Source: Populus alba
Lineage: Eukaryota > Streptophyta > Magnoliopsida > Malpighiales > Salicaceae
Direction: 5' to 3'
DNA length: 64,000 bases
Assembly: GCF_005239225.2 (NCBI RefSeq)
Contig: NC_133296.1
Coordinates: 2,170,001-2,234,000, forward strand
How positions within the stretch are numbered: position 1 is the stretch's first letter; each line of letters opens with the position of its first letter. Shown piece after piece: positions 17,547-24,187 of this stretch. Made by a program: the position numbers and the translations under genes. A model generated the notes under the pieces. That model was not told the DNA's origin. It did not search any database and saw only the letters and a list, made by a program, of their open reading frames with translations.

Positions 17547-17596
17547 GTCCCACATGGAGTAAAAGGAAATGAGCTTCCAGCAAGCGCATTTTAAAA
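17547..17596 (+). promoter_or_regulatory. Plant snRNA promoter (USE + weak TATA) for U5 copy 1
   Basis: GTCCCACATGG at 17,547-17,557 resembles the plant upstream sequence element RTCCCACATCG, with a different last base pair of the core. TTTAAAA at 17,590-17,596 is a poor TATA. The gap of about 32 bases is the RNA polymerase II spacing (U6-type polymerase III genes have about ten bases less). The weaker elements suggest lower activity than U5 copy 2. Confidence 0.65.
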
Positions 17597-17619
17597 TGCT
17601 AAGCAAACAGCCATCGAAA

Positions 17620-17751
17620 TCAAGCAGCCATGCAGTGATCACAGAGCGAACTATTCTTTCGCCTTTTACTAAAGAATACCGTGTGCTCACTGCAAATTCG
17701 TGGCATACACCTATTTTTGGACGGTTCTCTTCCTTAAGAGAAGAGCCTGTA
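17620..17751 (+). ncRNA. U5: U5 spliceosomal snRNA, copy 1
   Basis: The invariant U5 loop I, GCCTTTTACTAA, is at 17,661-17,672. It is closed by TATTCTTT/AAAGAATA and by an outer stem, GCAGTGA with TCACTGC. An Sm-type site (CTATTTTTGG, 17,711-17,720) follows, then a 3' hairpin (GGTTCTCTT ... AAGAGCC). Downstream, CAATTCTAGTTTAA (17,752-17,765) fits the plant snRNA 3'-end box CA-N-AGTNNAA. U5 loop I aligns exon ends in the spliceosome and binds the Prp8-containing U5 snRNP. The 5' end is estimated as about 30 bases after the TATA and by alignment to copy 2. It lies between OASTL copy 1 and an OASTL pseudogene, on the opposite strand to both. Confidence 0.88.
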
Positions 17752-17914
17752 CAATTCTAGTTTAAATGTTTCAAAGCTCTGGATTGTGTTAATAAAACGA
17801 CGAGTAAATAAGGCATAGGAAATGGGCTGTAAATGAATTTCTTGGTGGAAACTGTGCCGACAAATAAGTATTCCTGAAGTTCAAGAATAAGCAACAAGAT
17901 CTTAATCGAACGTG

Positions 17915-18990
17915 TCATGGTTTTTGCCTGATGGAATCAAACAGTTGATTACCAAGAAAATAAGTGGCATTAGTAAATTTTCAATACAGTTCAAATGCCA
18001 CTTGAAGCAAGCCAATCTGACTTAGCCACAACCAGTTTCCCAGCATTTTCTGGTCTTTTTGCCAACTTTAAAGCAGAATCTGTGGTGGCACCAGACGATA
18101 TTCCCACCTACATGGAAAAGGACAGGTTTTCATCATAAATGGTGAGATATGATGTCCATGACAGTTCTAGGCATACCAGCAAACCTTCTTTCAAAGCAAT
18201 CAGCTTGTTAGTTTCAACGGCTTCATCACTTGATACCTAATATGTAATAGCAGCACCGTGAAATTAAGCTCTGTAAGACAACATATTCCTAATAAAATGT
18301 TTAACAGATAAGCTCTTTTATGACCATTCTACTGGACCTTCAATTACTGCGGTTTAGACCCAGTGGTGGAGGACGGGAATCAAATATGAGTTGCAGCTCA
18401 GATGAAAAATCCTTATTTAACATTTGATTCATGTTGTCTCTCATAGTCTCACCAATAGCATTCGATTCAAATTACAAGCACAGCCAAAGAATGGGAGAAC
18501 AAGCAGATCATTTTCAGAGTAGTCAATAAAAAAGGCAAATGGTTTTAGACCTACTTTGAGAACTTCATCAAGCAGGTCATTATCCAAAGCAGGAGGTACA
18601 ACGCCAGCACCAAGTCCTTCAATCGAATGTGCACCTGTGACAAATAAGAAAGCAATGCATCCACTTAGGATTTGATCAAATCATGAGAACTTTGCAGGTT
18701 TCAGACAGGCTTACATGATTTGAGCAAATTGATTGATTAACATTATTTTAATCATGTTGTCTAAACACTCTAGAGTTTGGAGCAATTCACTAGCTACCAG
18801 ATTTTTCTTCATTCAGGACTGCACTTTCTGCTGGTTCTACACCATAAACCTGGATGTGAATGAAAGAAAATCATCCAATGAGATTATAATTAAACTAGAG
18901 GACATTCATCTTGCTCTTCACACACGCACACTGCAGAAGGAAAACCTTGATCTCTAGGTTTCCCTCCTTTAGAAATTTCTCAGGCTCTTT
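17915..18990 (-). pseudogene. OASTL pseudogene 1 (exons 10 to 5, 5' half missing)
   Basis: Remnants in correct order on the minus strand: exon 10 as a short piece (DSIRQ near 17,925-17,939, then a stop); exon 9 at 18107-18027 (VGISSGATTDSALKLAKR), its donor changed from GTAAG; exon 8 at 18236-18177 (VSSDEAVETNKLIALKEG) with good splice sites; exon 7 at 18634-18555 ([18 protein letters not shown]); exon 6 at 18849-18798 (VYGVEPAESAVLNEEKSG); and the 3' end of exon 5 at about 18990-18946 (KFLKEGNLEIK). Homology stops near 18,990, so the catalytic lysine and substrate-loop exons are absent. Exons 6-8 keep open frames and splice sites, so the break is fairly recent or a partial transcript may persist. 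Confidence 0.85.
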
Positions 18991-19264
18991 GAAATAGAAT
19001 CGGAATCTATACTAAGCGATTAACAGTTTGAATTTCAACAATGCTGCTTGAAAACCTTGATCACCTTTTCTTCTCTTGCAGCTTTACTAAGAATATATGA
19101 CAAGTGTGTTTTACAGAAAAGTGGAATTTCTAAACAGGTTGGAGATTGGGAGGGAGAGTTTACTCGGGTTATTTCTTTTCTGCAAAACAAGTTTCTTATT
19201 TATATCCTGCGAATACAAGAACTTGGTGCTCCCACGTCAATCAAGTCTGGAAGGGAAGGAAAAA

Positions 19265-19342
19265 TCACAGTGTGCTTGCCTCCTCAAACAGTGGCATACG
19301 CCAATTTTTGGAGGGTTCTCCTTTCAATGGAGGAGAGCTCTT
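19265..19342 (+). pseudogene. U5 snRNA pseudogene lacking loop I hairpin
   Basis: The 3' half of U5 is recognisable: TGTGCTTGCC, GGCATACGCCAATTTTTGGA (Sm site region), the hairpin GGGTTCTCCT ... AGGAGAGCTC, and a 3'-end box CAATTGTAGTTCAA at 19,344-19,357. Compared with U5 copy 2, about 37 bases between CACAG and TGTGCT are missing. That interval is the top of stem-loop I, including the essential GCCTTTTACTAA. The 5' end and a TATA are not recognisable. It cannot make a working U5. Confidence 0.8.
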
Positions 19343-22171: not shown

Positions 22172-22410
22172 AACAATGAGTTTCCCAGCATTTTCTTGTC
22201 TCTTTGCTAGCCTTATCGCAGCAGCTGCGGCACCAGGTGACATCCATACCTGTGGGAGAAGTCAAGATTCATTACAGAACTCTAAAAAAAAAAACCTGTT
22301 TTGAGAATTTGATTCTAGCTTGGTGCCCTTGGATAGGAATCTCGAAACAGTAGTGGGAGTACCAGTAGACCTTCTTTCAATGCAAGCAACTTGGCAGTTT
22401 CTATAACTTC
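22172..22410 (-). pseudogene. OASTL pseudogene 3 (exons 9 and 8 only)
   Basis: Exon 9 at 22249-22172 reads VWMSPGAAAAAIRLAKRQEN: the ISSG motif is damaged and one codon is lost, but the donor side (TTGTTGTAATTAG) is near normal. Exon 8 at 22410-22363 reads [16 protein letters not shown], missing its first residues. No upstream exons are recognisable. Sequence is closest to the OASTL exons of the two intact genes. The next feature on the plus strand is U5 copy 2. Confidence 0.82.
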
Positions 22411-22972
22411 CTAAATGGCTGGTAGGAGCAAGAAATTAGTAGAAGGATATTCTACGCTGCCTTTACACACAGAGAAGTCGGGCGTGTAAAAATCATGGTT
22501 ATAACACTTGTTTCGGTCCAAGACTCCATGGATTGAGTTTGATAGTTCAACACACAACAACATTGTTTTTTTTATTATTATTATTATTGAAACAACATTG
22601 TTTAAGATTAAAAAAAAAAAGGCATTGGAGTTAACCCTTATGAGTCAAATGAGTCAATCAACTTTGATTGGGTTAACTTTTAAAACGATTCAAAATAAAA
22701 TTTAATCAAGCCATATTTGAGTCGAAAGTTTATGGATTGCTCTGCTAAACCCGCTGGGACTGATAACTGCTATAAAAGAGAAAGAGTCCATGGAGGGGGA
22801 AATATGTTGGTTTTCAAATCACTAGTTTTAATACACCAATAAATAGTAAATACTTCAACTCTGTCGACAGGCTGATTTTTGGCGAAATCATTGCTTTTCC
22901 TACTCTAGCTCTTGGTTTTACCAAATAGTCTGATTTGTGTGTGGTCATGCAGTTAGGACAAGGCTATCAGAT

Positions 22973-23020
22973 ATCCCACATCGAGAATAAAGAAAATGAG
23001 CTGTTATCGAGTGCTTATAA
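22973..23020 (+). promoter_or_regulatory. Plant snRNA promoter (USE + TATA) for U5 copy 2
   Basis: ATCCCACATCG at 22,973-22,983 is an exact plant USE. TTATAA lies at 23,015-23,020, 31 bases further on, and about 30 bases before the inferred RNA start. This is the best snRNA promoter in the window. Confidence 0.88.
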
Positions 23021-23044
23021 GTACCAAAGCAAACATTATGCTCA

Positions 23045-23174
23045 AGGCACGCAGCCGCGCGGTGGGCACAGAGCGAACTATTCTTTCGCCTTTTACTAAA
23101 GAATACCGTGTGCTCGCCGCAGATAGCGGCATACGCTTATTTTTGGAGGGTTCTCTTCTTTTAAGAAGAGCCCC
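23045..23174 (+). ncRNA. U5: U5 spliceosomal snRNA, copy 2
   Basis: The loop GCCTTTTACTAA is at 23,088-23,099 with the same inner stem as copy 1. The outer stem is GCGGTG with CGCCGC, a paired G:C to A:T difference from copy 1. The Sm region is TTATTTTTGG (about 23,138-23,145). The 3' hairpin GGGTTCTCTTC ... GAAGAGCCCC ends at 23,174. The 3'-end box CAACAACTCTAGTTCTAA follows directly. With its exact USE and good TATA it is the most likely functional U5 of the three. Confidence 0.92.
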
Positions 23175-24111
23175 AACAACTCTAGTTCTAAATCTTGGAT
23201 GTACGTGCGTGATTGTAGGATATGGGTAGCTAGGACACGTTAAAAAGTTTATTCCTCTGTGGCTCCTGTTACCGTTGGGTACGCAGTGGCGGCACTCTGT
23301 TGTCTTGTCAAATTGTACTTAATGTAAGAAATTTCGTTGTACCAGCTTTACAAAGAAAATTAACCACTAACCAACAGTGATGAAAAACGTAAGTGTGCCA
23401 ACGAGAGCAAAGAGACATGGTAAGCAACATCATGCATGACATTGTAGTTGCCGCACAAGTTTTTTGAGATTGTATTTTTCTGTAATTCTCCATTGGTTCC
23501 GGTGAGATACGTGTTTATTGAAAATACTCAAATAGATTGATTATACATTTCCCTCATCCGATTTTCTGCCTTTATTATCGGGAGACTGTATATCAACGAG
23601 ACACCTATGACTTTGATTAAGGACGAAGGGGCAGCTGCCGACTGTTTTGGATGTAATGTGCTTTTTGGTGAAATCAATCTCCATTGTATTTTATAGTGAT
23701 TAGGACAGTAAACATTATTTAGGCAAATGGCCCATTACCCTCTTTTCCCCCCCTTGAAAAGTCGGGTTGCTTGCAATTCTATAGTAATGCAGAACTCAAC
23801 GCTGAGGTCCTTGGAGTTCAAATGCATTTGTCTCTCATCCCTAAATATCTAGAAGAAACTCACAAGATCACCCTTTGAAGTTCATTTCTGGGTTCAAATA
23901 TTTCGGATGGAAATGCCTCACAATCTTTATTTATAGTTTGATTTTTTATCCCCTAGGTAATCAATCAATTTTGCTTTATTGAAAACTGTGAGAAACAGAG
24001 TGGTTGCGAGGAAGCCGAGAAGGTTGCTTTGCTCCCTAACCATCTCATATTGTTATAAAGTATTTGGCAAAGCATGTGGATATAAATAAGAAGCCCAAAA
24101 CAACGGGAGAC

Positions 24112-24187
24112 ATACTTACCTGGACGGTATCAATGGGTGACCTCCGTTGCACTTAGGAGGGGTACTAGCCTAAGGTCTCCCAAGTGA
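24112..24187 (+). pseudogene. U1 snRNA pseudogene (stem-loop I deleted, 3' half lost)
   Basis: Begins ATACTTACCTGGACGGTATC and has TATAAATA (24,081-24,088) at the right distance, but the USE is degenerate (ATCTCATATTG near 24,042). About 32 bases are missing between two GTGA copies, removing U1-70K stem-loop I. The U1A loop is altered to GTTGCAC. Homology ends after AAGGTCTCCCAAGTG, so stem III is cut short and the Sm site and stem IV are absent. It cannot form a U1 snRNP. Confidence 0.85.

Follow-up and report, generated by a model that had tools for sequence, protein, structure and literature searches.

A probably old mixed cluster of U1 and U5 small nuclear RNA genes interleaved with cysteine synthase copies in Populus alba

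Introduction

Do the U1 and U5 small nuclear RNA (snRNA) genes lying among copies of cysteine synthase (O-acetylserine(thiol)lyase, OASTL) on contig NC_133296.1 of Populus alba form a genuine mixed cluster, and how could such an arrangement have arisen? The window, that is the whole 64,000-nucleotide stretch analysed, corresponds to C13:2170001-2234000 (C13 denotes this contig, and C1, C2, C5, C15 and C19 denote others); coordinates without a contig label are window positions, and genome-wide searches were carried out over the 416-Mb assembly of 96 contigs. The evidence presented below makes it very probable that the locus is an old mixed cluster of U1 and U5 snRNA genes of the RNA polymerase II (Pol II) type.

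Results

Identity and order of the snRNA loci

Rfam covariance models, including those for U1 (RF00003), U5 (RF00020) and U4, were searched over the whole window using the gathering cut-offs (69.5 bits for U1 and 40 bits for U5), and a looser covariance-model scan, accepting matches up to E 1, covered positions 16500-30000. An initial annotation had proposed a mixed U1-U5 cluster of six loci on a single strand, alternating with OASTL copies on the other strand, and had named RF00003 and RF00020 as the means of checking it. Two U1 and two U5 matches scored above the gathering cut-off; they lie on the + strand, from 17626 to 23171, and these four genes, together with two remnants, bear out the mixed single-strand cluster:

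17626..17746, + strand, U5-1 snRNA gene, full length, RF00020 84.7 bits
19260..19338, + strand, U5 pseudogene, 3' part only, from BLAST and sequence reading
19837..19996, + strand, U1-1 snRNA gene of the GGGGTC subfamily, full length, RF00003 126.5 bits
21654..21813, + strand, U1-2 snRNA gene of the GGGATC subfamily, full length, RF00003 126.7 bits
23053..23171, + strand, U5-2 snRNA gene, full length, RF00020 91.5 bits
24112..24186, + strand, U1 pseudogene, from covariance model, BLAST and sequence reading

The intact loci are U1 and U5 genes. The sequence ATACTTACCTG stands at all three U1 starts in the window (the two intact genes and the U1 pseudogene), and the U1 5' end complementary to the 5' splice site, ACUUACCUG, is present in U1-1, U1-2 and the U1 pseudogene. 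The U5 loop GCCTTTTACTAA was found in U5-1 and U5-2, both of which keep the conserved loop I GCCUUUUAC and the Sm site AUUUUUGG; the counts of three U1 5' ends and two U5 loops given previously were thus confirmed by sequence match. Along the window the order is OASTL-A, U5, OASTL-B remnant, U5 pseudogene, U1, U1, OASTL-C remnant, U5, U1 pseudogene and OASTL-D, with the snRNA loci on the + strand and OASTL sequence on the - strand between and around them. The two families are therefore interleaved, but they do not alternate strictly, as the U5 pseudogene and the two U1 genes run together. No U4 match over the cut-off was obtained in the 64-kb window in the Rfam scan, and no tRNA was found in the window by ARAGORN, run with the bacterial setting.

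Promoter elements and 3' boxes

The upstream sequence element (USE) was compared with the consensus RTCCCACATCG and the TATA box was scored as the best six-base match to TATAAA. According to the available part of PMC9845283, the USE and TATA box of plant Pol II snRNA genes lie four helical turns apart, and those of RNA polymerase III genes one turn fewer. The plant snRNA 3' box, given in the available part of PMC5079582 as CA(N)3-10AGTNNAA, was searched with the spacer taken as 2-10. The following elements were assigned to the intact genes:

17547..17557, + strand, USE of U5-1, GTCCCACATGG, pattern match with 1 mismatch, starting at -79
17590..17595, + strand, TATA-like box of U5-1, TTTAAA, 1 mismatch, starting at -36
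17752..17765, + strand, 3' box of U5-1, pattern match
19762..19772, + strand, USE of U1-1, ATCCCACATTG, pattern match with 1 mismatch, starting at -75
19805..19810, + strand, TATA box of U1-1, exact TATAAA, starting at -32
21580..21590, + strand, USE of U1-2, ATCCCACATTG, pattern match with 1 mismatch, starting at -74
21623..21628, + strand, TATA box of U1-2, exact TATAAA, starting at -31
22973..22983, + strand, USE of U5-2, ATCCCACATCG, pattern match to the exact consensus, starting at -80
23016..23021, + strand, TATA-like box of U5-2, TATAAG, 1 mismatch, starting at -37

All four intact genes thus have a USE and a TATA or TATA-like box, and the gap between the two is exactly 32 nt in each, in agreement with the spacing of about 32 bases reported in the initial annotation. 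Because this gap fits the rule as set out in the available part of PMC9845283, the intact window genes were assigned to the Pol II class. USE matches with at most one mismatch number four over both strands of the 64-kb window, one per intact snRNA gene.

Broken snRNA copies

Both snRNA pseudogenes look like deletions in place, judging from what is left of each copy and its upstream elements:

19229..19239, + strand, USE-like remnant before the U5 pseudogene, read by eye
24081..24086, + strand, TATA box of the U1 pseudogene, pattern match

The U1 pseudogene was matched in the covariance scan at 24112-24204 with 23.8 bits (E 0.013), under the 69.5-bit cut-off. It comprises U1 positions 1-29 and 55-105, whose matches overlap by 4 bases at 24137-24140 (microhomology), it has lost the Sm site and the last stem-loop at its 3' end, and the USE consensus is matched best at 24042, with 3 mismatches. 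The U5 pseudogene was identified by BLAST with the window's own genes (75% identity to positions 47-119 of U5-2, E 6e-9) and gave no covariance-model match up to E 1 in the scan of 16500-30000. From its USE-like stretch to the point where similarity to U5 picks up again, at gene position 47, there are about 31 bases, as against about 126 in an intact copy; the TATA region, together with the 5' strand and loop I, has been lost. The proposed total of six loci thus comprises four covariance matches, a truncated U1 below the cut-off and a U5 remnant recognised by BLAST only.

Cysteine synthase copies

The OASTL sequence on the opposite strand was resolved into four copies:

13512..15738, - strand, OASTL-A, diverged cysteine synthase copy, exon pieces by protein comparison
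17946..18979, - strand, OASTL-B remnant, three 3'-side exon pieces, aligned with C5:3530944-3531993
22153..22412, - strand, OASTL-C remnant, two 3'-side exon pieces, by alignment and sequence reading
24519..27630, - strand, OASTL-D, cysteine synthase copy, exon pieces by protein comparison

The array, described previously as decaying, is only partly decayed: the internal copies B and C are remnants, whereas the two long outer copies, A and D, are open in the pieces read. OASTL-D yielded eight exon pieces, all open, that begin near residue 15 and reach the usual C terminus; the pieces located include neither the first exon nor one exon of the middle part. Four of its pieces were compared with a Citrus cysteine synthase, with identities of 83-95% for three and 63% for the fourth, which is short. 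The exon pieces read in OASTL-A are likewise open, the last running to a stop at the usual C terminus, and two matched stretches show 49% and 62% identity to the Citrus protein; this much diverged copy perhaps represents a separate OASTL lineage. A PALP domain was found in exons of OASTL-A and OASTL-D, and no Pfam match was obtained for piece 18444-18680 of OASTL-B, the sole remnant piece scanned.

The U1 and U5 families across the genome

At least 24 U1 and at least 19 U5 genes scored over the cut-offs genome-wide, and 12 of the 24 U1 and 8 of the 19 U5 have the other type within 15 kb; in a control with random placement (2000 runs), no more than 2 U5 fell near a U1. Clusters of U1 and U5 lie on C13 (the window), at C5:3491616-3503732, at C5:3535989-3550889 and at C1:33483238-33485180, with neighbours of different type about 0.26-2.5 kb apart and one U1 on C5 at about 12 kb. 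At C2:836890-837228, a U5 of 63.9 bits without a USE is accompanied by a U1 below the cut-off. None of the nine U4 genes over the cut-off lies in a U1-U5 cluster. The arrangement is not a one-off, as the same genome holds a duplicate on C5 that is colinear in part and, on C1, a U1-U5-U1 cassette.

The U1 alignment and tree were built from 24 copies, excluding C2:837089, C15:3431842 and window 24112, which are below the cut-off. U1-1 groups with seven of the eight C5 cluster genes and both C1 genes (the GGGGTC group, support 89/93), and U1-2 falls with genes of C13, C15 and C19 in a GGGATC group that has eight members and weak support (80/60). A third group contains five further genes, and C5:3535989 carries GGGATC yet falls outside the group of eight.

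Among the other snRNA loci recorded in the same searches is a mixed group within 38 kb at C5:8778840-8816559, where the - strand carries three U2 and four U4 genes that score over the cut-offs; at another place a U1 (C13:4008007) and a U2 (C13:4009080) lie on the same strand about 0.9 kb apart. In the U1 at C13:13335415, 10 inserted bases that repeat adjacent sequence immediately precede the Sm region; this copy is otherwise full length and has a perfect USE.

A partly colinear block on C5

Ordered alignments that include the spacers relate window 17946-28034 to C5:3530944-3543733, and the order in this C5 block (OASTL, U1, U5, U1, OASTL, XRN) repeats much of that in the window. OASTL-B pairs with 3'-side sequence of an OASTL gene on C5, U1-1 and the last part of the U5 remnant align with C5:3536475-3537081 (U1 at 3536907), U5-2 and the U1 pseudogene have the U5 at 3538298 and the U1 at 3539811 as positional partners, and OASTL-D aligns in order with an OASTL gene of the block. 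Two further features extend the comparison:

21195..21572, unstranded, colinear intergenic stretch, partner C5:3537531-3537906, 76.5% identity over all columns and 82.9% ungapped
36282-38074, N-terminal exons of an XRN 5'-3' exonuclease, past the OASTL array, synteny marker

The XRN exons follow both blocks (C5:3559845-3561610 and C13:2206282-2208074), and further left, sequence flanking the U5 at C13:2129358 on its right is 80-83% identical to C5:3504410-3506854, a stretch immediately past the first C5 cluster. Because the C5 block is partly colinear with the window, a cluster containing U1, U5 and OASTL is older than the C13/C5 duplication. Salicaceae underwent a whole-genome duplication, and this was perhaps the event that duplicated the block.

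Over all columns, the C13 and C5 copies are 90.8% identical for U5-2 and 88.8% for U1-1. The corresponding upstream flanks are 68.6% (83.4% ungapped) and 73.4% (81.6% ungapped) identical, and upstream flanks and spacers as a whole lie at 69-77% counting gaps and at about 82-83% ungapped. U1-1 has 96.2% identity to C5:3491616, more than to C5:3536907, the gene that is its positional partner. Gene conversion between the arrays was considered as an explanation for this closeness to U1 genes other than the partner; however, the partner has a long branch and a USE with 3 mismatches, and its faster decay would explain the pattern.

Spacers of the U1-U5-U1 cassette on C1 are 75-89% identical to those of the first C5 cluster, so that the cassette is a DNA-level relative rather than a set of retrocopies; no OASTL match was found near it. 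C5 has two instances of a unit made up of a U1 and an adjoining OASTL (3539811 with 3540865 on, and 3550730 with 3552037 on), and repetition of such a unit is the simplest account of how the families became interleaved.

Outside the cluster, a 200-base direct repeat (77.5%) is present at window 3712-3908 and 12932-13128, with a relative in inverted orientation at C5:3547137-3547280, and a rubredoxin protein is encoded at window 50.1-50.9 kb. This protein shows 96% identity to a metagenome record, 89% to Dovyalis caffra and 84% to both Populus tomentosa and Salix udensis, in keeping with a plant of the Salicaceae in the wide sense.

Discussion

Proposed history and function

Each intact gene is predicted to be its own transcription unit, in which the USE and the TATA box, about four helical turns apart, would direct Pol II; the transcript would be cut downstream, be bound by Sm proteins at the Sm site and enter the U1 or U5 small nuclear ribonucleoproteins (snRNPs). 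The cluster would have grown as DNA segments were duplicated in tandem, an OASTL gene on the opposite strand being carried by some of them, after which internal OASTL copies and some snRNA copies would have lost pieces and the block would have been duplicated to give those on C5 and C13. From their sequence, the window genes look like functionally ordinary splicing-RNA genes, for which transcription, use in snRNPs and a tandem-duplication history are predicted, and the linkage to OASTL would amount to neutral hitch-hiking in segmental duplication.

Paired changes in the U1 RNAs support, rather than prove, that they are under selection. Across the 24 genomic copies, 98.4% of cells in the consensus structure are paired, as against 36-48% when partners are slid by 1-3 columns, and 12 pairs show two-sided changes, in 48 cells compared with a shuffled mean of 14. 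The paired share and the covariation score were equalled in 0 of 500 shuffles each, the number of pairs with two-sided changes in 2 of 500 and the further pair types in 18 of 500. The U5 consensus structure from 19 copies, in which 6 of 26 pairs show two-sided change, the covariation term is -0.49 and the 3' stem-loop is unpaired, was not used as evidence.

Several observations weigh against an old cluster of functional genes. The U1 structure was derived from the very alignment on which it was tested and the copies are related, both of which favour it. U5-1, U1-2 and OASTL-C have no colinear C5 partner in the block alignment, their best alignments being to copies at other places in the block, so that they need not predate the duplication and may have arisen on C13 afterwards or have been lost from C5. 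The markers that speak for a whole-genome duplication as the origin of the two blocks are OASTL, the snRNAs and, beyond these, a single one, XRN. The Sm site of U1-2 is AATTTGTGT, as in C13:4008007, where the majority of copies have AATTTGTGG, and the 3' box pattern fits one of the four intact window genes, U5-1, the other three having near matches judged by eye. The USE was also compared between 21 clustered copies (12 U1 and 9 U5, including C13:2129358, which lies more than 15 kb from any U1) and 21 single copies out of the 43 genes over the cut-offs, C2:836890 being omitted. It lies within one mismatch of the consensus in 9 of 21 clustered but 20 of 21 single copies, the mean being 1.7 against 0.5 mismatches (Mann-Whitney p 1.4e-4, the copies not being independent). 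Since the clustered USEs are weaker, part of the snRNA family may be drifting.

Alternative explanations

These weaker promoters speak for redundancy with gradual loss and against a strongly selected cluster. Taken furthest, they would make the locus a graveyard in the making, where the redundant copies are drifting and the strong promoters of single loci supply most of the splicing RNA; that two of the six window loci are broken and that, by hand count in the same grouping, the 3' box pattern fits 12 of 21 single copies but 1 of 21 clustered ones would agree with this. However, as regards the USE the four intact window genes belong to the better part of the clustered copies, retaining at most one mismatch and the exact spacing, and U5-2 and U1-1, the two genes covered by the comparison, are better conserved between C5 and C13 than their flanks, so that their intactness does not reflect mere youth. 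Wholesale decay of this kind therefore appears unlikely. The loci can hardly be dispersed retro-pseudogenes inserted near OASTL genes, a description that at most the two truncated copies could fit: correctly spaced USE and TATA-like boxes, spacers common to the copies and location on one strand only argue against this. The initial annotation had named missing covariance matches, or retro-pseudogenes without upstream elements, as the outcomes that would count against it; what was found instead was four matches above the gathering cut-offs, each with its upstream elements.

An opposite view is that selection keeps the mixed cluster together, for example for balanced U1 and U5 output or for a shared nuclear position, an idea prompted by Cajal bodies as treated in the available part of PMC4802181. 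Mixed U1-U5 groups do occur on C13, twice on C5 and on C1, C5 and C13 have part of the order in common, and further mixed groups exist, with U2-U4 at C5:8.78-8.82 Mb and U1-U2 at C13:4.008 Mb. However, the mixed U1-U5 loci are related by duplication and hence are not independent cases, 11 of 19 U5 and 12 of 24 U1 genes lie more than 15 kb from the other type, the C1 cassette has no OASTL match nearby and promoters are weaker in clustered copies, which makes such selection quite improbable. The broader proposition that mixed arrays are normal in this plant family, with order or dosage selected across a large duplication through a shared nuclear domain, is similarly doubtful, if marginally less so. 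The preferred reading thus remains an old mixed cluster of Pol II-type genes that grew by duplication.

Significance and comparison with known clusters

snRNA genes are easily omitted by protein-centred annotation, as the initial annotation had anticipated for this U1-U5 cluster with the support of the present results, and for multi-copy families it is often unknown which copies produce RNA. Duplicated arrays with private differences, two adjacent U1 subfamilies and graded promoter decay would allow copy-specific expression to be related to promoter state and position. Tandem OASTL gene arrays occur in plants, and the array described here resembles them in its tandem copies, some partly lost, and in its PALP domain; it differs in having snRNA genes on the opposite strand between the copies, these genes seemingly forming part of the duplicated segments.

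The arrangement had been called unusual, and no U1-U5 cluster was met in the literature searched by title and abstract, a coverage from which subscription journals were mostly absent; however, other mixed plant snRNA clusters are known. In Arabidopsis, the available part of PMC545797, the one plant survey of snRNA genes at genome scale noticed in that literature, lists seven U1-U4 clusters, one U2-U5 cluster, and one tandem duplication each of U2 and U5. As described there, the U1-U4 clusters likewise place two Pol II snRNA types next to each other, were spread by duplication and include some pseudogenes, but U1 is always upstream of U4 with 180-300 nt between them, whereas here the partner is U5. 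No U4 of the Arabidopsis type, 180-300 nt downstream of U1, was met in the window or near the cluster U1 genes and, as the clusters contain no U4, they do not follow the U1-U4 pairing. The Arabidopsis U2-U5 cluster, in the same source, is alike in linking U5 to another Pol II snRNA type, but it is a single pair less than 200 nt apart with U2 as the partner, whereas the Populus alba loci are multi-gene arrays with U1. In its organisation the cluster is thus a variation on the known mixed plant snRNA clusters, to whose pairings U1-U5 can now be added.

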